A stretch of DNA of 64,000 bases from Bartonella massiliensis (GTDB taxonomy: Bacteria > Pseudomonadota > Alphaproteobacteria > Rhizobiales > Rhizobiaceae). The translations under genes and the position numbers were made by a program. Under the pieces are notes generated by a model that saw only the letters and a program-made list of their open reading frames with translations, ran no database searches and was not told the DNA's origin. The stretch covers positions 62,001 through 126,000 of the forward strand of contig NZ_CABFVS010000002.1 of NCBI RefSeq assembly GCF_902150025.1, read 5' to 3'. This document shows positions 35,401 through 47,201 of the stretch, piece after piece (position 1 is the first letter of the stretch; each line of letters starts with the position of its first letter).

Positions 35401-38316
35401 TTAAATCTTGCCAAGAGCTTTTAATTCCCGCAAAGCCGCTGCATCACGAGCAGAGACATCAGGATAAGTTGGGTCACTCCCGACATCTTGTGTATAACGC
35501 CATGACCTGGCACACTTTTTCCCTACCGCTTTCTCTGGCAAGACACCAACGCCTTCAACATCATGCAAAGTAAAAGCATCAGACGGTATAGGATCCTGCG
35601 TAATCGTGAGAGCACTGGTGATACAGATCTCTGCCATATCCACATTTTCTAATGCCTCTCGTAAAACCGGATTGGAAATAAAAACAATAGGCGCTGCTTC
35701 TAGTGAGGATCCAATACGCTTATCTGCGCGTTCAAGCTCTAAAGCACCTGTCACAACTTTACGAACCTGCCGAATTTTTTTCCAACGTTCAGCCAAAGAT
35801 TGGTTTTGCCATTCTTCTGGCACAGAGCGAAATTGTTCCAAATGCACAGACTGACTTTCTGGATAACGCTCCAACCAAGCCTCTTCCATCGTAAAAGGCA
35901 ACATTGGAGCAAGCCATGTCACCATTCGTTCAAAAATCTCACGAACAACTTGTAAAGAAGCCTTACGTTTTTGTGATGAAGGTGCGTCACAGTAAAGAGA
36001 ATCCTTGCGGATATCAAAATAAAATGCCGATAACTCAATGATTGAAAAATCCAATAATGCACGCATAATCTTTTTAAAATCAAACGCATCATAGGCTCGA
36101 TTAATCAGTTGATCGAGTTCAAAAAGCCGATGTAAGATAAGTTTCTCAAGATCTGGCAGTGCGTCATAAGGTATTTCTTCCCCTTCATCGTAGGCTAAAG
36201 TTCCAAGCATCCAGCGAATTGCATTGCGCAATTTACGATATGAATCCACATTTGTCTGAAGAATTTTCTTACCTAAACGCTGATCTTCCCAATAATCTGT
36301 TGTCATCACCCAAAGACGAAAAATATCAGCTCCAGATGTTTTTATGATCTCTTGTGGAACAACCGTATTGCCTAAAGATTTAGACATTTTCTTACCATTT
36401 TCATCCAAAGTAAAACCGTGTGTGATCACTGTTTTATAAGGAGAACAACCACGTGTGCCGCAGCTTTCCAAAAGAGAAGATTGAAACCATCCACGATGTT
36501 GATCAGAACCTTCAAAATAAACATCTGCTGGCCATTTCAAATCCACCCGATCTTCCAATACAAAGCTATGACTTGCGCCAGAATCAAACCAAACATCCAA
36601 AATATCATAAACCTGCTCCCAAGGCTCATGTGCACGGTTACCTAAAAAACGTTCACGCGCTCCTTCAGCAAACCATGCATCTGCCCCTTCTTCTTCAAAA
36701 GCCCGTAAAATACGCTCGTTCACGCTTTCATCTTTTAGGACAACACCATCCTCATTGGCAAAAATACAAATAGGAACCCCCCAAGAACGTTGCCGTGACA
36801 GAACCCAATCAGGACGATCTTCTATCATAGAAGCGAGGCGGTTTTGCCCAGAAGATGGTACAAAACGGGTTTTTGCAACAGCTTCCAAAGCTCGACTACG
36901 TAAAGTTTCCCCATCCCCAAGATCTTTATCCATTGAAATAAACCATTGCGGCGTATTGCGAAAAATAACGGGTTTTTTCGAACGCCAACTATGGGGATAG
37001 GAATGTTTTAAACGCCCCCGTGCAAATAATCGATCTGCATTAATTAAAGCATTAATGACCTCTTTATTGGCGTTACCCATTTTTCCATTATCATCAATAA
37101 CACGTGCTGGTCCCCCTTCCCGATTCGGACCAAACCCAAGAACATCTTTCGTATAGAACCCTGCATCATCAACAGGAAAGGGTATTGATGAATCAATTCC
37201 CGCTTGCTCTAATAAAAGCTTATAATCATTCCAAATTTCAAAGTCCTCACGCCCATGGCTCGGTGCTGTATGGACAAAACCTGTACCAGCACTTTCCGTC
37301 ACATGAGCCCCCTCAAGCAGTGCAATCTTATAATTATATCCTCCAGCCAAACCTTTAAGTGGATGAGAAAGAATAAGAGCTTTCAATTCATCAGCGGAAA
37401 TAACACGCAAACGTTTCAAAACAAGTTTGGCTTTTTCTGCACAACTCATGGCGAGAGCATCTGCAAAAAGAAGCTTTTCTCCCATTTGCGGACCAAAATC
37501 ATTTTCAGCCCTTTCAACCTCATAAAGGCCATAAGAAATCTGCGAAGAATAACTCACCGCACGGTTAGCTGGAATTGTCCATGGTGTTGTTGTCCAAATG
37601 ACGACATAGGCCCCATATAAATCATCAGAATTTGTTTCAAAAACAGGAAACTTAACCCAAATCACCTCTGATTCATGATCATGATATTCAATCTCTGCCT
37701 CTGCCAAGGCTGTGCGCTCCACAACAGACCACATCACTGGCTTGGAACCACGATAAATCTGATCTGACATCGCAAATTTTATCAATTCACGCGCAATGCG
37801 TGCTTCTGCTTGAAAAGCCATTGTTGTATAAGGCGTATTAAAATCTCCCACAACACCAAGGCGTTTAAATTCTTCACTTTGAACGCTCACCCAATGCTGT
37901 GCAAATTCACGGCATTCCTGACGAAACTCGTTCAGAGGAACCTCGTCCTTATTTTTTCCTTGTGCGCGATATTTTTCCTCAATTTTCCATTCAATTGGAA
38001 GCCCATGGCAATCCCAACCAGGAACATAATTTGCATTAAAACCCCGCATTTGGAATGAACGAACAACTACATCCTTGAGAACTTTGTTTAAGGCATGCCC
38101 AATATGAATATGACCATTTGCATAAGGTGGGCCATCATGCAGAATATAAAATGGACGATCTTTTGCTTGTTGGCGCAATTGCGCATAAAGCCCCATATTT
38201 TCCCAACGCGCCATTAATTCACGCTCTTTTTGCGGAAGCCCTGCACGCATAGGAAAATTTGTTTGTGGGAGATAAAGAGTTTTTGAATAATCTATTGTTT
38301 CATTTTTCACAGTCAT
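35401..38316 (-). CDS. ileS: Isoleucyl-tRNA synthetase
   Basis: Charges tRNA-Ile. It has 971 residues. The class I signatures are HIGH at residues 71-74 ([15 protein letters not shown]) and KMSKS near residue 640 ([12 protein letters not shown]). The CP1 editing domain lies between, including [13 protein letters not shown] and the [17 protein letters not shown] loop. The C-terminal anticodon-binding region ends without a Cys zinc finger, as in many alphaproteobacteria. No lesions. Confidence 0.96.
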
Positions 38317-38563: not shown

Positions 38564-40195
38564 TTAGAATTTATAAGCTACACCAACACGGAAATCATTG
38601 GTTTTGTAGTTAACCTCAAGTTTTTCCTTTGCAAATTTCTTTTTACCAAAATCGGAGTAACGGTATTCTGCACGCACAATAACGTTATCCAACATCGCAA
38701 AATCAATGCCACCACCAAGAGTGTAACCAACCATAGTCTTAGTTTCATCGGTTAAATTCCTAGAAGAAACAACATTCCCATCCTCATCCTTAACGGATAT
38801 TGATACAGTATCTTGGAACTGCCCATAAGCAATACCACCAGCAAGATAAGGCATAAAGCGATCAGCAGCAAAACCAATACGTACCCGTGTAGCACCACCC
38901 CAATTTTGTTTGAAAGTATGATTTAAAGTTTCAACGTCATCCTCTTGATCAAGACCAAGTTCAGAAGCCATCCTTTTCATTTGTTCTATACCATATACAC
39001 CGGACGCCCCCTTATCCGCTGCTTGGGTACTTTGCACTCCATGTGGATGAGAGCCATGTGAACCGTGTGGGTTAGCACCAGAGCCATGATGACTACCTGC
39101 GTGATAGCTACCATGCGAATGAGGATATCCACCACCATGGGCACCATGATAACCTTGCGCTCCACTTGTTCCTGTTCCGTTTGCAGCTTTTGCTGGTTCA
39201 GAGGATGAACTTGACCTCGCCAATGTAAGTGTTTTGCTCGGTACTGTTTTTTCTGCTGTTGATGATTGTGATCCTGGCTGTATCGACGTAGGTGCTGTTG
39301 TTGCTAGCTTATTTACTGCTGATTCTGTTGATGATGCAGAGGATACTGCCGTTGTCGGTTGTGCTGCTGGTTTAGCTACATCATCAGGTTTTACTGGTGC
39401 TGGTTGTATAGGCACACTTGTTCCACTTGCCCCTACTCCTGATAAGTTATCCACCGAAGCTGATCTTCCCAATAAGAGCGATGATGTCCCTCCTGTATCT
39501 GATCGCGCTGATAATTCCGGTGATGATTGTACTGATGGTGATATTGCCCCTGAACTAGAGGATGTTGTGGGTGTAGTTGAAGCCCCACTCCTTGATACTG
39601 TCGTTACCGTTGACGCTGATGTGGTAGTGGAGGCTGCTGCTACAGGTGTCACTGAAGCGCTAAGCGTTGCTGATGTGCCAGATGTTGCTCCTGCTGATTC
39701 TGGTGCTTTTGCCTCTCCTGATTCTCCTGGTACTGTTCCTGTTCCTGATGCTCCTGACCGTAATGCACGTACAGATCTGCGGGATCTTGCGACTGCATTT
39801 TCTACTGTAGAGTCATTAGTTGCACCTATATTAATGGTCTTTGTGTGTTTTTTACCTGATAACATTAAATCCGTATCGACACCAAAAATAAAGTTATCAC
39901 CGAGATCAATATTAGAGCCCATATAAAAACCACCTGCAAAACCTGAAAGTTTAGGAGAGAACTCTTTATCTAGTGGAAAACTCTTTTCTTGATCAACAAG
40001 AGCTATATCACCTTTGCTCGAAAAACCACCAGCCTGAACACCTAAATAAAGGCCTGTCCATGAAAAAGTAGGCGCAACAATAGTAGAAGACGTTGATGAT
40101 GCTGACTGATGAGGAATCATCACATCAGCAGCAAGCGCTGTAGACGCTGAAATTAAAGAAAAAATAGACGCCGTTATTAAACGTTTTGTATTCAT
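38564..40195 (-). CDS. Hemin-binding-protein family OMP with long Ser/Thr/His-rich insertion
   Basis: Outer-membrane beta-barrel of the Bartonella Hbp/Pap31 family, 543 residues from ATG 40195 (ribosome site GGAGAG). The signal peptide ends STALA-ADV at about residue 22; barrel strands include FSWTGLYLGVQAGGFSS at about 44-60 and WGGATRVRIGF near 432, and the C terminus NDFRVGVAYKF ends in Phe as porin-like barrels do. Family members here have 275-294 residues; this one carries an extra segment at about residues 140-395 of Ser/Thr/Ala/Pro-rich low complexity ending in a His-rich patch (11 His in residues 350-385). By alignment the insertion falls in a loop between strands, probably outside the cell. 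The family binds heme; metal or heme binding by the His patch is inference. Confidence 0.85.
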   Translation of the reverse strand: MNTKRLITASIFSLISASTALAADVMIPHQSASSTSSTIVAPTFSWTGLYLGVQAGGFSSKGDIALVDQEKSFPLDKEFSPKLSGFAGGFYMGSNIDLGDNFIFGVDTDLMLSGKKHTKTINIGATNDSTVENAVARSRRSVRALRSGASGTGTVPGESGEAKAPESAGATSGTSATLSASVTPVAAASTTTSASTVTTVSRSGASTTPTTSSSSGAISPSVQSSPELSARSDTGGTSSLLLGRSASVDNLSGVGASGTSVPIQPAPVKPDDVAKPAAQPTTAVSSASSTESAVNKLATTAPTSIQPGSQSSTAEKTVPSKTLTLARSSSSSEPAKAANGTGTSGAQGYHGAHGGGYPHSHGSYHAGSHHGSGANPHGSHGSHPHGVQSTQAADKGASGVYGIEQMKRMASELGLDQEDDVETLNHTFKQNWGGATRVRIGFAADRFMPYLAGGIAYGQFQDTVSISVKDEDGNVVSSRNLTDETKTMVGYTLGGGIDFAMLDNVIVRAEYRYSDFGKKKFAKEKLEVNYKTNDFRVGVAYKF

Positions 40196-40251
40196 AAAAT
40201 CTCTCCAAATATCCAAAATGATATGTATATAGAGCATCTTTTTGGAAATAT

Positions 40252-40270
40252 CTGTAGCAAAAATGACACA
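40252..40270 (-). promoter_or_regulatory. Conserved hbp upstream box, first hbp gene
   Basis: CTGTAGCAAAAATGACACA on the plus strand, one base different from the cluster consensus CTGTAGTAAAAATGACACA, 57 bases before the start codon. Confidence 0.65.
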
Positions 40271-40469
40271 CTCACAAAAAAATAAAGAACTTTTGAAAAT
40301 AAGCCTTCTGAACCATTGAATTTTGTATTCAATGAAAATTTATAAACTAAATCATACTGGATATGTGTCTTATTGTTGGACTCATTTGCATTAAATTTTC
40401 GCATGACTGTTAAGGACAATATTCTTTACAAATTTTTTTGACCGAAATCTAAATAATGCTATGCTTCAT

Positions 40470-40516
40470 ACAATAGAATATTGTCTGTCATTGCAAAGTT
40501 AATGCCAGCGCAAACA
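40470..40516 (-). pseudogene. Scrap of an hbp gene
   Basis: ATTGTCTGTCATTGCAAAGT at 40483 matches the segment of the hbp genes encoding DFAMTDN, with flanking similarity. It is a 45-base relic of a further hbp copy. Confidence 0.6.
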
Positions 40517-40570
40517 ATTAAACAAATCATTGCCTTTGTTAAAATTAAGCACCATTAGAGTTTTATCTAT

Positions 40571-40642
40571 TGTCCAACATGGTCTATCTTTGATGCTTTA
40601 GAAATGAGTATTTTGTATCTTTAATTACGAAATACAAAAGCC
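40571..40642 (+). pseudogene. Scrap of the small membrane protein gene
   Basis: About 72 bases match 4681-4752 with scattered substitutions and one indel (CATGGTCTAT, GATGCTTTAG, AATTACGAAATACAAAAGCC). It corresponds to the C-terminal WSIFGALAIVFYILNYEKQK of that protein. Confidence 0.7.
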
Positions 40643-40689
40643 TAAAGTCAAACATCAAACAACTTTTAGATTCTTTGTGGAGATATTTT

Positions 40690-41073
40690 CATCCAGACAC
40701 ATCACTTTGATTGATAATAATAACTTATTGTTTTGCACGTTGAATGCAAAAAAACATAGGATTATCTCATTTCAAACCTATTTATACTGAATTAGTCAAA
40801 ATTACTTGCTTACACATCAAAAGCGAGGTTAGCATGTGGGAAAAACCGTACAAGAAAGATATGCCTTTTCACAAACCGTTGAGAAGTGCCAAGCTTTAGT
40901 CTGCGACATTCTAGAGCTCGCACAAGTGTATGATGATGTCAGCTTATTACTCCATAAGCGTAAAGATGGGGGTGATCGATAGATTTTATATGATATGGAG
41001 GGGGGAGTATTGCATCATTCATAGAGCCGTCATGAAGTAAATGTGATGTGCTTTGAGCAAATATTTCTTTAGA
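40690..41073 (+). repeat. Integrase-derived repeat, copy 7 (5' part)
   Basis: Leader followed by decayed codons for LLLHKRKDGG and YCIIHRAVMK...LRANISL, ending at about 41073 where it meets the oppositely oriented copy 8. Confidence 0.6.
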
Positions 41074-41074
41074 G

Positions 41075-42390
41075 TAAGTGTTTAAATACGAAAAACAAGT
41101 GTATTTTGTTGGGATATTCTGTTTTGCATGGGCGGTGATCCATATATCCCCTTTAACTTGATCTTCACATATGTAACGTAAAGGATATGTACGAACTTCT
41201 GTAAGGATCAGCAGAGGTAAAGCCAGTTGTGTTATAGCTGTTGTTTGACAAAGTATTTTATAAAAAGCCGAAATATCTCTCCAATTTATTACTGGCATAT
41301 GTTGTATTTTATGACATTGTTTTCCTAAAAAAATACGTGCTTTTCTATTGCTTGTAAATCAATATCCACCCCTAAGGCAGCCGCATATTTGAGACAAAGA
41401 TTAAAACGGTTCAGTATTTTTTCAGCTGTTGCAGCTTTTCTATGCCAAATAGGAGCGAGAGTATTGCGTATCTCTGTTTGTGTAATTTCTAAAATGGGCA
41501 GACAGCCTAATTTAGGAAGAATATGAAGACGTAAAGGTGTAAACCATTTACCATTTTTTCCCCATCACCTTTTAATTCAGCTTTATGGCTTTCAAAAGTA
41601 TCTAATGTCTTTTAAATAATGGAGATTACCCATTGCCTCACATTTTTGTTTATTGTGTGTCTAATGGAATCACAACTCTCACCTAAAACAGCGCCCAAAT
41701 GGAATATAGGCATGTTGCACATTCATGGATTTGTTTTAAAGAAATATCTCTCAAGGTATATTATACCCATTTCACACAGGGCCCCATAAATGAAGGGGAT
41801 AGTGATAAAGCCTCAATAATATAAAATCTATTGAGCTCCACCATCTTTACGCTAGTGAAAGAGAAAGCCGGCACCATCGTTATATTTTCCAGCCCTAAAA
41901 TATTGCGTTCTGGGAGTACGACCTTCATGTAACACAGAACGCTCCAAATAGAATATAGGTATGTTGTATATTCACGAGCTTGTTTTAAAGAGGCATCTCC
42001 CAAGATATACCCCCCATTTTACGACGCCGACTGTGAATGGTATAACGATAAAGTCCCAATAATATAAATCTATTGAGCTCCCTATTTTTATGCTTGTGAA
42101 AAAGAAAACCGGCATCATCGTTATATTTTCCAGTCCTAAAATATTGCAGCAAACCTTGGCACTTAAGACGATTCATAAGAACCATTTTTAGACCTTTCTT
42201 GTATAGTTTGTACTCACACGCCTGCCCCGCTTGTGACGCGCAAGCCAAGTAATTTTTATTGATGCAACATAGTGAGATTTGAAATAAAAGAATCTTACGG
42301 TATTCAGACTTTTAATTCAAGTTGAATAACGCTAGATTATCATTATAAATCAATGTATCATATCCTTTAAAGAACATCGTTAATGAAAGC
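41075..42390 (-). pseudogene. Tyrosine integrase remnant with catalytic-domain part (copy 8)
   Basis: The longest integrase remnant. From 42250 downward: MVLMNRLKCQ, GKYNDDAGFLFHKHK, LYRYTIHSRRRKMG, then PLKQAREYTTYLYSIWSVL; a second partial N-terminal copy overlaps at 41665-41985. Further on come DTFESHKAELKGDGEK, LHILPKLG-like and LAPIWHRKAATAEKILNRFN codons in shifting frames. An open stretch (40939-41298) reads MPVINWRDISAFYKILCQTT, TQLALPLLILTEVRTYPLRY and ICEDQVKGDIWITAHAK: the start of the catalytic domain with the first Arg region. It is cut before the His-x-x-Arg and Tyr motifs. Confidence 0.7.
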
Positions 42391-42394
42391 GCAA

Positions 42395-42600
42395 TATATT
42401 GAAAAAATGTCCAATCTTTATTATTTAAAAGATATTAGATGCTTTTGAAAATCGTAAAGCTGAGTGACAAAAAAGAGGGTGAAGTTGGAAACTGTTTTCT
42501 ATTTTTTAAAAATTGGTTTCTATTTTTAAAACTTCATATTTTTCTAAAATGAAGCTCTATATTTCGGTTTTAGCGATGAGTAGATATACATCATACCCTC
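42395..42600 (+). repeat. Integrase core-domain scrap
   Basis: Decayed codons MSNLYYLKDI, then a frame change giving ENRKAE-like and WFSI-LK-HIF sequence, corresponding to the part after the N-terminal domain in copies 2 and 8, but in the opposite orientation to copy 8. Confidence 0.45.
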
Positions 42601-42861
42601 GCTCTCATCTGGTATATAGTCTATAAAAGAAGGTTAAAGTTGATTACTGATTATAATCTTTTTCTACTTCTGAGATTTGCTAAATGCTTTCCACTTGTTT
42701 CGTAGAATAGTCGTAGCACTATAAAGTTTTATGAATCAGTCATTATAAAACCGATATATGCCCCAATTTACTCCCTATGATATAAAACTTTTTTTAAAAG
42801 TCTTATGACGCAAAATAATATAAAGAAATTAAGAGAGATCAAATAGAGAGTGAATGAAATA

Positions 42862-42884
42862 AAGGCCCCGTTAAACGAGGCCTT
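42862..42884 (-). terminator. Terminator after the second hbp gene
   Basis: AAGGCCTCG / CGGGGCCTT stem (one G-T pair) with a short loop, followed on the minus strand by a T-rich stretch; 38 bases past the stop. Confidence 0.75.
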
Positions 42885-42922
42885 CGTATTTTTCCTGTGT
42901 TTATAATTTCATGTTTATGAAA

Positions 42923-43807
42923 TTAAAATTTGTAAGCAACACCTACACGGAAATCATTAGTTTTGTAGTGGAATTCACGTGTATCGTTTGCGAATTTCTT
43001 TTTACCAAAATCAGAGTAACGATATTCTGCACGCAACAGCACATTGTCTGTCATTGCAAAGTCAACACCACCACCTATAGTGAAACCAACCATTGTCTTC
43101 GTGTCATCAGCCCAAGTACCACCAGTCAAATCTACAGTTTGCATATTCTTTTCTGGCTCCTGCCCCCCATCTTTCTGCACATCCTTAGCTCTTTGGCCTT
43201 TTCCTGCAACGGATTGAATGCCCTGTACCTGCGCATAGGCAATACCCCCAGCAATATAAGGCATAATACGGTCAAAAGCAGTATAACCAATACGAACACG
43301 TGTCGCACCAGACCATTTTTCTTTGTAGCTGTGTGTTTCCGCTACCTGGTCCGTTGCTTGAAACACTTGGTCACCTTCTAATTCAACCTTAGCTTTTTCA
43401 AGGGCAGCATTAAAACTTTCTGCTTGCGTAGAATTAAGAGTGTACTCATCTGCTGTTTTTGTTTTTTCACGGTCTGCCCAAACGGCATCGGTTTCAACAC
43501 CGAGAATGAGGCCATTTCCAAGATCTACGTTAGAACCTGCATAAATACCTCCCATGAAACCAGAAGGCTTAGGTGTGTTATCTTTTTTGAAAAGATCTTT
43601 ATCTTCTCCTGGAATAGTTACTTTAGTTTTACTTGAAAAGTTTCCAACTTGACCACCGATATAAAAACCTGTCCAAGAAAATGAAGGGGCTGCTGCAATA
43701 ACGGCTGCTGGGGCTGCTTCATGAGGGATCATGACATCAGCAGCTTGTGCTGCAGAAGCGGAAACCAAAGCGACAACAGAAGTCGCTATTAAAGATTTTG
43801 TATTCAT
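42923..43807 (-). CDS. Hemin-binding-protein family outer-membrane protein (second)
   Basis: 294-residue Hbp/Pap31-family barrel. Signal MNTKSLIATSVVALVSASAA with cleavage after AQA, then ADVMIPHEAAPAAV, FSWTGFYIGGQVGNFSS, the conserved NGLILGVETDAVWADRE, KWSGATRVRIGYTA, and the Phe-ended C terminus. The variable loop at about residues 115-160 (Gln/Glu/Ala-rich) and another at 195-230 distinguish it from its neighbours. Likely role is heme binding at the cell surface, as known for the family. It carries the shared upstream box and its own terminator, so it is probably transcribed alone. Confidence 0.88.
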   Translation of the reverse strand: MNTKSLIATSVVALVSASAAQAADVMIPHEAAPAAVIAAAPSFSWTGFYIGGQVGNFSSKTKVTIPGEDKDLFKKDNTPKPSGFMGGIYAGSNVDLGNGLILGVETDAVWADREKTKTADEYTLNSTQAESFNAALEKAKVELEGDQVFQATDQVAETHSYKEKWSGATRVRIGYTAFDRIMPYIAGGIAYAQVQGIQSVAGKGQRAKDVQKDGGQEPEKNMQTVDLTGGTWADDTKTMVGFTIGGGVDFAMTDNVLLRAEYRYSDFGKKKFANDTREFHYKTNDFRVGVAYKF

Positions 43808-43974: not shown

Positions 43975-44817
43975 CTAAAATTTGTAAGCGACACCGAAAC
44001 GGAAATCATTGGTTTTATAGCCTAATTTAAGATTATCTTTTTTAAATTCTTTTTTACCAAAGTCTGAGTAACGGTATTCTGCACGCAATAACACATTGTC
44101 TGTCATTACGAAATCAACACCTGCACCCAAGAGTAAAACCGACCATCATTTTTGTTTTATCAAGTACTGTCGCAAAGACTTCTTTACTTGGTTTACCATC
44201 TACCGGCTTTTTTGTTCCTGAAACACCACCAACACCTTGTATTTGCGCATAGGAAATTCCCCCCGCAACATAAGGCATCATGCGGTGTGTAACAGCAAAA
44301 CCGATACGAACGCGTGTAGCGCCAGACCATTTTTCTTTGAAACCAATGCTATATACTGCTTTGTCACCCTTCTTAAACTTTTCATTTTCATCCAGTATAA
44401 CACCAGCATCTTCAAATTTATCATTAAAATCATCAAATTCATCAATCGCAAGGATCTTTGAGACTGTCTTCTTATCTCCTCGATCTGCCCAAACGGCATC
44501 GGTCTCAACGCCTAGAATAAGGCCATTACCAAGATCTACGTTAGAACCTACATAGATCCCCCCATGAAACCAGAAGGCTTAGGGAGCCCATCTTTATCTG
44601 TCGTTTTTTCTTTTGTCTCTAAATCAAATGCTGCAACTTTACTTGAAAAGTTTTCAACTTGACCACCGATATAAAAACCTGCCTAAGAAAATGATGGGGC
44701 TGCTGCAATAGCTGCTGCTGGAGCTATTTCACGAGAGGTAATAACATCAGCAGCTTGTGCCGCAGAAGCCGTTGCTATAGCAATGACAGAAGTTGTTATT
44801 AAAGATTTTATATTCAT
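43975..44817 (-). pseudogene. Hemin-binding-protein family gene, disrupted
   Basis: A third hbp copy that is clearly dead. It starts MNIKSLITTSVIAIATASAA and has signal and first strand, but TAG at 44683-44685 replaces the Trp codon in the FSWAGFYIGG motif. A one-base deletion near 44570 (GATCCCCCCATG) and a one-base insertion near 44130 (CACCCAAGAG) shift the frame, compared with the fourth copy. The C terminus KTNDFRFGVAYKF is still readable. Overall closest to the fourth copy in leader and signal peptide. It keeps the upstream box but has no obvious terminator. Confidence 0.85.
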
Positions 44818-45202: not shown

Positions 45203-46030
45203 TTAGAATTTGTAAGCAACACCTACACGGAAATCATTGGTTTTGTAAGAGGTTTTATCCTCGTCCTTTTCAAAGGCTTTTTTACCAAAGTCTGAGTAAC
45301 GGTATTCAGCACGCAACAAAACATTGTCTGTCATTGCGAAGTCAACACCACCACCAATGGTGAAACCAACAAACGTTTTTGATTTATCATATACTTTAGC
45401 AGTAGCGATTTCGTCACCACCAGCTGTTTCTGCCTTAAGAGAACTGGCAAGCTGCAGCTGTGTATAAGCAATACCACCAGCAATATAAGGCATAATACGG
45501 TCAATGGCTGAAAAACCAACGCGAACGCGTGTAGCACCAGACCACTTTTCTTTTAGAAAGCTGCTCTCTACTTTCTTGTCATTCTCCGTAATACTATCAA
45601 CCTTTCCCGTAGCTTTAAGTGCTGTAAGCTTATTTTTGAATGTTGGAAGGTCAGTCTTCCCAATAACTTCTGAAGAAGCTTTTGTTTCTTTGCGATCTGC
45701 CCAAACGGCATCAGTTTCAACACCTAAAATGAGGCCATTGCCAAGATCCACGTTAGAACCTACATAGATACCGCCCATAAAACCAGAAGGCTTAAATACC
45801 GAGTCTTTATCTGTAATTTTCTTTTTTGATTCTGAATCAAAGATATCAACTTTACTTGAAAAGTTTCCAACTTGACCTCCGATATAAAAACCTGCCCAAG
45901 AAAATGAAGGGGCTGCTGCAATAACTGCTGCTGGGGCTGTTTTATGAGGGACGATAACATCAGCAGCTTGTGCTGCAGAAGCAGCTGCTATAGCGATAAC
46001 AGAAGTTGTTACTAAAGATTTTATATTCAT
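45203..46030 (-). CDS. Hemin-binding-protein family outer-membrane protein (fourth)
   Basis: 275-residue Hbp/Pap31-family barrel. Signal MNIKSLVTTSVIAIAAASAA, cleavage after AQA; ADVIVPHKTAPAAV; FSWAGFYIGGQVGNFSS; NGLILGVETDAVWADRK; KWSGATRVRVGFSA; end TNDFRVGVAYKF. A Lys/Asp-rich variable loop at about residues 120-160 is probably surface-exposed. Its leader is nearly identical to that of the neighbouring pseudogene, pointing to tandem duplication. Has its own box and terminator. Confidence 0.88.
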   Translation of the reverse strand: MNIKSLVTTSVIAIAAASAAQAADVIVPHKTAPAAVIAAAPSFSWAGFYIGGQVGNFSSKVDIFDSESKKKITDKDSVFKPSGFMGGIYVGSNVDLGNGLILGVETDAVWADRKETKASSEVIGKTDLPTFKNKLTALKATGKVDSITENDKKVESSFLKEKWSGATRVRVGFSAIDRIMPYIAGGIAYTQLQLASSLKAETAGGDEIATAKVYDKSKTFVGFTIGGGVDFAMTDNVLLRAEYRYSDFGKKAFEKDEDKTSYKTNDFRVGVAYKF

Positions 46031-46367: not shown

Positions 46368-47201
46368 TTAAAATTTGTAAGCAACACCAACACGGAAATC
46401 ATTGGTTTTATAAGAAGTTTCATATTTATCATTTGAGAATTTCTTTTTACCAAAATCGGAGTAACGATATTCCGCACGGACAATAACATGATTGGTCATG
46501 GCTAAATCAACACCTGCACCAAGGGTGTAACCAACAAGAGTCTTTGTTTCATCAGTAAGATTACCAGAAGCTATAACTTTGTCTGAATCTTTTCCTGTTA
46601 TTGAAATCGATGCAGTATCTTGAAGCTGTGTATAGGCAATACCCCCCGCAACATAAGGCATAATACGTTCAGCAGCAAAACCAATACGTACACGCGTTGC
46701 ACCGGCCCACTTTTCTTTAAAAGTAAAACTATGTGTCCGTTTAGAACCCTCTACGAGTGCATCTTCACCAATATTAATTCCAGCCTCTTTCAACATCCTC
46801 TTAATATAATTGACGTGACCTTTGTCAATGAGAAATGTTTCTCCTGTCTTCGTGTCGCTTTTATCAGTCCACATGATATCTGTATCGACACCTAAAATGA
46901 GACCATTGCCAAGATCAATATTGGAACCTGCGTAAAGCCCCCCCATAAAACCAGATAATTTAGGCAAAAGGCTTTTACTCACAGGAATCTTTTGTCCTCC
47001 AGCAAGAATATCCATCTTCGTCTTACCAGAAAAACCACCAATCTGCCCACCAAGGTATAAACCTGTCCAAGAAAAAGTTGGTGCAACAATAACGGGAGCA
47101 ACAGGTGTTGGATTCGGGGGAACAATAACATCTGCTGCCTGCACCGCTGAACCTGAAATAAAAGCGAAAGCAGAAGCTGTCATTAACCATTTCATATTCA
47201 T
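46368..47201 (-). CDS. Hemin-binding-protein family outer-membrane protein (fifth)
   Basis: 277-residue Hbp/Pap31-family barrel. Signal MNMKWLMTASAFAFISGSAV with cleavage after VQA; a Pro-rich start of the mature protein (VPPNPTPVAPV); FSWTGLYLGGQIGGFSGK; NGLILGVDTDIMWTDKSD; KWAGATRVRIGFAAERIMPY; SISI-GKDSDKVIASGNLTDE; end KTNDFRVGVAYKF. In FSWTGLYLG, DTD and NLTDETKT it resembles the barrel of the first (insertion-bearing) gene more than its other neighbours, so there are two sub-lineages in the cluster. Confidence 0.88.
   Translation of the reverse strand: MNMKWLMTASAFAFISGSAVQAADVIVPPNPTPVAPVIVAPTFSWTGLYLGGQIGGFSGKTKMDILAGGQKIPVSKSLLPKLSGFMGGLYAGSNIDLGNGLILGVDTDIMWTDKSDTKTGETFLIDKGHVNYIKRMLKEAGINIGEDALVEGSKRTHSFTFKEKWAGATRVRIGFAAERIMPYVAGGIAYTQLQDTASISITGKDSDKVIASGNLTDETKTLVGYTLGAGVDLAMTNHVIVRAEYRYSDFGKKKFSNDKYETSYKTNDFRVGVAYKF

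Follow-up and report, generated by a model that had tools for sequence, protein, structure and literature searches.

The window, a stretch of 64,000 nucleotides of Bartonella massiliensis DNA, encodes an Hbp of 543 residues in which outer loop 2 carries about 265 residues more than in other copies of the family. We assign the gene to hbpB, and the protein is predicted to fold into an outer-membrane barrel of eight strands, like OmpA, NspA and Opa. The loop is a mosaic in which conserved ends and a His/Gly patch surround a hypervariable linker, and the insert is confined to one clade of the genus. Our tentative reading is that the loop is a disordered tether on the surface and that heme (or metal) is captured by its His patch. 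We infer the binding by the patch itself and give this reading as a whole a probability of about 0.4. That HbpB has an extra segment is not new: it is published for B. quintana, whose HbpB is described in the available text as ~11 kDa bigger, with a central part that other Hbps lack (PMC3483173). As far as the literature searched goes, what is new is the clade-only presence, the position in outer loop 2, and the mosaic of kept ends and patch around a variable linker; we found no published account of how the HbpB loop varies across species.

Identity of the Gene

The gene lies in a genome of 2.27 Mb (G000), and its product starts with MNTKR. The protein matches PF13505, an outer-membrane beta-barrel domain, at 50 bits (cut-off 28.7), and the Porin_2 model overlaps that match at 51.2 bits (cut-off 22). 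The hbp paralogues and a remnant lie upstream and ileS lies downstream, so that ileS adjoins the gene at the end of the hbp cluster, which is the place of the HbpB subgroup. In one genome, G023, the ileS-adjacent gene contains exact matches to the cores of both B. henselae hbpB primers in the literature, and for that reason we take G023 to be B. henselae. Since the primer-matched gene also adjoins ileS, the window gene is identified as hbpB. From MNTKR, the G023 gene measures 1176 bases with its stop, 6 below the published 1,182-base product; the published hbpA and hbpC products are likewise 6 bases longer than their open reading frames. The C-terminal barrel of the window protein groups with other HbpB, and its central part is absent from other Hbps. 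In a midpoint-rooted tree of C-terminal barrels, the smallest clade holding all 41 HbpB contains 43 of the 212 tips, the extras being G035 and one paralogue; the largest wholly pure HbpB subclade has 33 members and is without support. Judged from gene order, primers and barrel, the window gene is thus an orthologue of a known protein, sharing with HbpB of B. henselae and B. quintana the same ileS-adjacent gene and the same kind of central extra part. The inserts nevertheless differ: from the end of strand 3 to the second helix, that of B. henselae (G023) has 138 residues versus 290 in the window, and the linker is mostly unalignable between them.

Table 1. Features of hbpB and its surroundings, in window coordinates.
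Feature	Position	Strand	Basis
hbpB coding sequence, 543 aa + stop	38564..40195	-	ORF call; B. henselae hbpB primer match in the G023 orthologue
Putative signal peptide, residues 1-22	40130..40195	-	Read from sequence (A-L-A before ADV); model helix 3-21
Barrel strands 1-3, residues 48-122	39830..40054	-	AlphaFold2/DSSP; amphipathic blocks in paralogues
Conserved first insert flank, helix 129-143, RSRRS motif (137-141)	39767..39811	-	Alignment and model
Hypervariable Ser/Thr/Ala/Pro linker, residues about 142-345, predicted disordered	39161..39772	-	Alignment, composition, model
27-base tandem repeat, 2.6 copies, within the linker	39686..39756	-	Repeat finding
His/Gly patch, residues 350-385, 11 His	39041..39148	-	Residue count; kept across the clade
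Conserved second flank, helix 401-412	38960..38995	-	Alignment and model
Barrel strands 4-8, residues 423-543	38567..38929	-	AlphaFold model, structural matches
ileS, synteny marker downstream of hbpB	35401..38316	-	ORF call
Intact Hbp paralogue, 294 aa, no insert	42923..43807	-	ORF call
Degraded hbp remnant interrupted by stops, flanked by intact paralogues	about 43978..44817	-	Sequence reading
Intact Hbp paralogue, 275 aa, no insert	45203..46030	-	ORF call
Intact Hbp paralogue, 277 aa, no insert	46368..47201	-	ORF call

Architecture of the Barrel and Loop 2

The sequence-only reading had described a Ser/Thr/Ala/Pro-rich extra segment placed between barrel strands in an external loop and ending in 11 His within 36 residues. 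The composition, the His count and the place between strands hold, and the external position is predicted. Among the 211 of 228 Hbp open reading frames that could be parsed, the distance from the end of strand 3 to the Trp opening the strand 4 motif is 322 residues in the window protein, whereas 148 other Hbp copies have a median of 56. The His count is exact, at positions 350, 353, 359, 361, 365, 369, 370, 377, 380, 383 and 385. The AlphaFold model has eight strands and places the insert between strands 3 and 4, which is outer loop 2; its mean pLDDT is 63 and its pTM 0.52, and residues 149-399 mostly fall below a pLDDT of 50, so the loop is modeled at low confidence. Structural matches to OmpA, OmpW, NspA and Opa60 fall within residues 43-543, and a profile match of HbpB to Opa60 is significant (E 1.1e-5). 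The patch is not at the tip of a stalk. It sits near the barrel, where the loop ends on its C-terminal side, beside the conserved helix.

The side of the membrane is assigned by barrel convention and by homology to Opa, since the AlphaFold model carries no membrane orientation, and that leaves some room for a periplasmic segment. In the model strand order, however, three short turns (residues 100-101, 443-446 and 501-504) lie on one side of the barrel and the insert on the opposite side, no model puts the segment in the periplasm, and the hypervariable loops of the homologous Opa60 are extracellular according to the accessible part of a published account (PMC5020929). We regard a periplasmic location as very improbable.

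Forty other genomes have an open frame with this architecture, and in a 41st, G035, the corresponding parts flank a stretch of unread bases; the insert is therefore neither chance nor a frame artefact. No second copy of it was found in its own genome. On the + strand opposite the insert, a 230-codon open frame runs from 39234 to 39926, probably as a by-product of the codon make-up of the insert.

Distribution of the Insert in Bartonella

Of the 70 other Bartonella genomes, 68 supplied the stretch upstream of ileS and G057 a shorter one; G062 was left out. Insert landmarks are present in 41 of 68 ileS-adjacent Hbp open reading frames, the window included, with 97-403 residues from strand 3 to the second helix. 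Counting G035, where the insert parts flank the unread bases, the insert is in all 42 genomes of a clade that forms a single group with support 1.0 in an ileS tree of 70 genomes. It is in none of the 27 genomes examined outside that clade (26 plus G057), with G062 and G063 left unjudged. The clade includes B. tribocorum, B. grahamii, B. elizabethae, B. vinsonii, B. doshiae and B. taylorii, and we take it to be lineage 4. Because the distribution is clean, the insert was probably gained in the common ancestor of the clade, and a single gain on its stem would be the simplest history. A foreign origin is not needed, since the GC3 of the insert is like that of the barrel (0.23 vs 0.26). Among the ileS-adjacent copies outside the clade, 6 of 23 (G036, G010, G042, G015, G047 and G006) are nearest HbpB among clade proteins in the C-terminal barrel tree, and the remaining 17 are nearer other paralogues.

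One ileS-adjacent Hbp outside the clade (L115 10804-11844, in G046) has a moderately long loop 2 with a GRSDAARNGS stretch and no His patch. It might represent an intermediate stage.

Variation of the Linker

The segment had been suggested to be variable, and it differs strongly between species. Mean pairwise identity is 0.75 in the N-terminal barrel, 0.65 in the first flank, 0.23 in the linker, 0.40 in the His patch, 0.66 in the second helix region and 0.83 in the C-terminal barrel; these figures come from 39 sequences (741 pairs) for the linker and 41 (820 pairs) for the other parts, with the linker taken as window residues 142-324 and the patch as the 75 residues ahead of the helix (325-399). 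Shuffled linkers align at 0.18-0.19, so the linker retains little beyond its composition, which is 59% Ala, Ser, Thr and Pro and 0.2% His, with almost no aromatics and with Cys and Trp absent. Shuffled patches align at 0.18-0.20. Orthologues carrying one unchanged segment would have spoken against a variable loop, and the forms that the orthologues carry are very different. Even in close species, with a barrel dS of 0.04-0.16, the linkers align only partly (G025/G066 and G026/G049).

Tandem repeats are a conspicuous part of this variation. The inserts contain 95 arrays, or 2.96 per kb, and the rest of hbpB 5 (0.15 per kb), about a twentyfold difference. They occur in the inserts of 30 of 41 genomes with units that differ, and 94 of the 95 periods are divisible by three. 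The patch has repeats of its own, such as NPHGS four times running in G035.

The linkers do not follow the species. In 9 of 37 cases the linker is most similar to that of the nearest species by ileS (4 of the 41 had no match), versus 19 of 41 for the barrel; the best match falls among the three nearest species in 14 of 37 versus 33 of 41. Between G025 and G067, 206 bases are shared at 90.3%, a far closer match than G025 has with G066, its nearest species. No shared linker stretches more alike than ileS were found. Older exchange or differential loss could both produce this disagreement.

HbpB shares with Opa60 of Neisseria a homologous eight-stranded barrel and a hypervariable loop 2; HV1 of neisserial Opa is loop 2. 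HbpB differs from Opa in varying in one loop only, as the conservation of the C-terminal barrel indicates. Its repeats also stay in frame, without the on-off switching of frame-shifting repeats, and it carries the His patch.

Conservation of the Patch and Flanking Motifs

Within the insert, the patch is where the His are confined: the last 95 residues contain 6-14 of them in 40 of 41 inserts, and the exception, G001, has only 2. Individual His positions shift within the patch alignment, and a Pro-His pair of the form [NHSAQRC]PH occurs in 38 of 41. His is followed by Gly 189 times and preceded by Pro 96 times. The median dN/dS is 0.60 for the patch (106 pairs) and 0.15 for the barrel (107 pairs); the patch dS is about twice that of the barrel (0.51 vs 0.26), which indicates that the patch alignment is partly wrong and makes its dN/dS rough. 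Close to the start of the insert, 39 of 41 have an RSRRS-like motif, which could be a protease site or a ligand contact. Of the 406 Arg residues counted over whole inserts, 213 precede a Ser, and these 213 RS dipeptides are a threefold enrichment over shuffles (71 +- 8). Including loops 3 and 4, the C-terminal barrel has 112 residues in 38 of 41.

Possible Function of the Loop

Plasmodium HRP2 and mammalian histidine-rich glycoprotein are His-rich binders of heme or metal with low-complexity His-rich runs. Only the type of run is alike, with no homology claimed, and the HbpB run differs in sitting in a barrel loop. The HbpB used in published uptake tests is, by the primer match in G023, the insert-bearing ileS-adjacent gene. 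In those tests, as far as the accessible text goes, HbpB outdid the three other B. henselae Hbps when paired with HemR in E. coli, giving halos of 2.77 cm at 50 uM hemoglobin; at 1 uM the values were 1.84 for HbpB and 1.22 for HbpD, with none for HbpA and HbpC (PMC3483173). The Hbps were described there as helping HemR use hemoglobin heme and as not being transporters themselves. These data are in line with heme capture. Our confidence stays below one half because, in the same available text, heme binding on blots is reported for each of the four Hbps, of which three lack the insert, and every blotted protein bore a C-terminal six-His tag; HbpD, without the insert, was second best in uptake; and HbpB was undetected by western blot in cultured B. 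henselae, with the same reported by the authors for outer-membrane proteomics (PMC3483173). Since all four bind heme and carried tags, the difference seen in those tests does not point to the patch in particular. Published knockdowns of each of the four Hbps shortened persistence in fleas.

We propose that, in the ancestor of the clade, outer loop 2 of HbpB gained a long segment predicted to be a disordered tether. Slippage of in-frame repeats, and possibly exchange, would lengthen, shorten and turn over its middle, as suggested by those repeats and by linker relationships at odds with the species tree. The C-terminal end of the tether, the retained His/Gly patch, would capture heme on the outside of the cell. 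This would increase the heme available locally to the actual transporter and build up a heme shell that protects against peroxide. The linker would serve as a flexible spacer and low-complexity cover, free to vary. A more ambitious version, rather doubtful at present, is that the single stem event made loop 2 an evolving disordered heme sponge, a selected His/Gly polymer on the fastest-turning spacer, partly exchanged between species, feeding uptake as well as hiding the barrel.

A main role in immune evasion, with the loop as a decoy or shield that draws or blocks antibodies and the His patch secondary, is rather unlikely. Such a role would suit the contrast in identity between linker (0.23, 741 pairs) and C-terminal barrel (0.83, 820 pairs), the poor agreement of best linker matches with the nearest species (9/37 vs 19/41 for the barrel), and the use of the same loop as Opa HV1. 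The excerpted sources add that Opa HV regions are extracellular (PMC5020929) and that B. birtlesii and B. tribocorum strains with disrupted Hbp genes, which Hbp being unstated, cause no bacteraemia (PMC3430587). Against it, available passages report B. quintana hbpB as raised in arthropod-like conditions, at low temperature and high heme (PMC3483173, PMC3799009), and HbpB as undetected in cultured B. henselae (PMC3483173). The repeat units that vary by species yet stay nearly always in frame, and a composition that is held while the order is not, with barrel-like GC3, would also fit a linker that is an unconstrained spacer drifting by slippage, with only flanks and patch of importance. We think this unlikely, as the near lack of aromatics and His, the absence of Cys and Trp, and the enrichment of RS dipeptides suggest some selection.

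The patch may also bind a transition metal such as zinc, nickel or copper and not heme. Its His-Gly (189) and Pro-His (96) runs are typical of metal-binding His-rich stretches. The function of the family and the HbpB uptake phenotype, as the available text reports it, concern heme, however (PMC3483173), and we consider this quite improbable. The extra part of HbpB, the best of the four Hbps in uptake, is left without explanation in the available text of the published account. By inference, the loop would be unlikely to serve as a shared antigen and perhaps useful for typing.

The hbp Cluster

Five Hbp proteins had been counted in the window; four intact genes are present, and the fifth is a remnant with stops. 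HbpA/Pap31 and the other Bartonella Hbps share the barrel and the cluster with HbpB, at 45-57% identity to the window protein (36 insert-free copies aligned), but unlike HbpB they have at most 4 His in loop 2, a count that holds for all 148 copies. A 2.7 kb spacer, mostly of low GC, separates hbpB from the next hbp gene (40238-42922), its longest listed open reading frame having 119 codons. Among the matches listed, pieces of it match at least several hbp-cluster sites in related genomes at about 65-80%, some of them inverted. The final 330-400 bases ahead of hbpB are kept in several relatives, which fits a promoter region. Large tandem hbp arrays lie upstream of ileS in L114 (G047) and L115 (G046), with 12 and 11 open reading frames in 12 kb.
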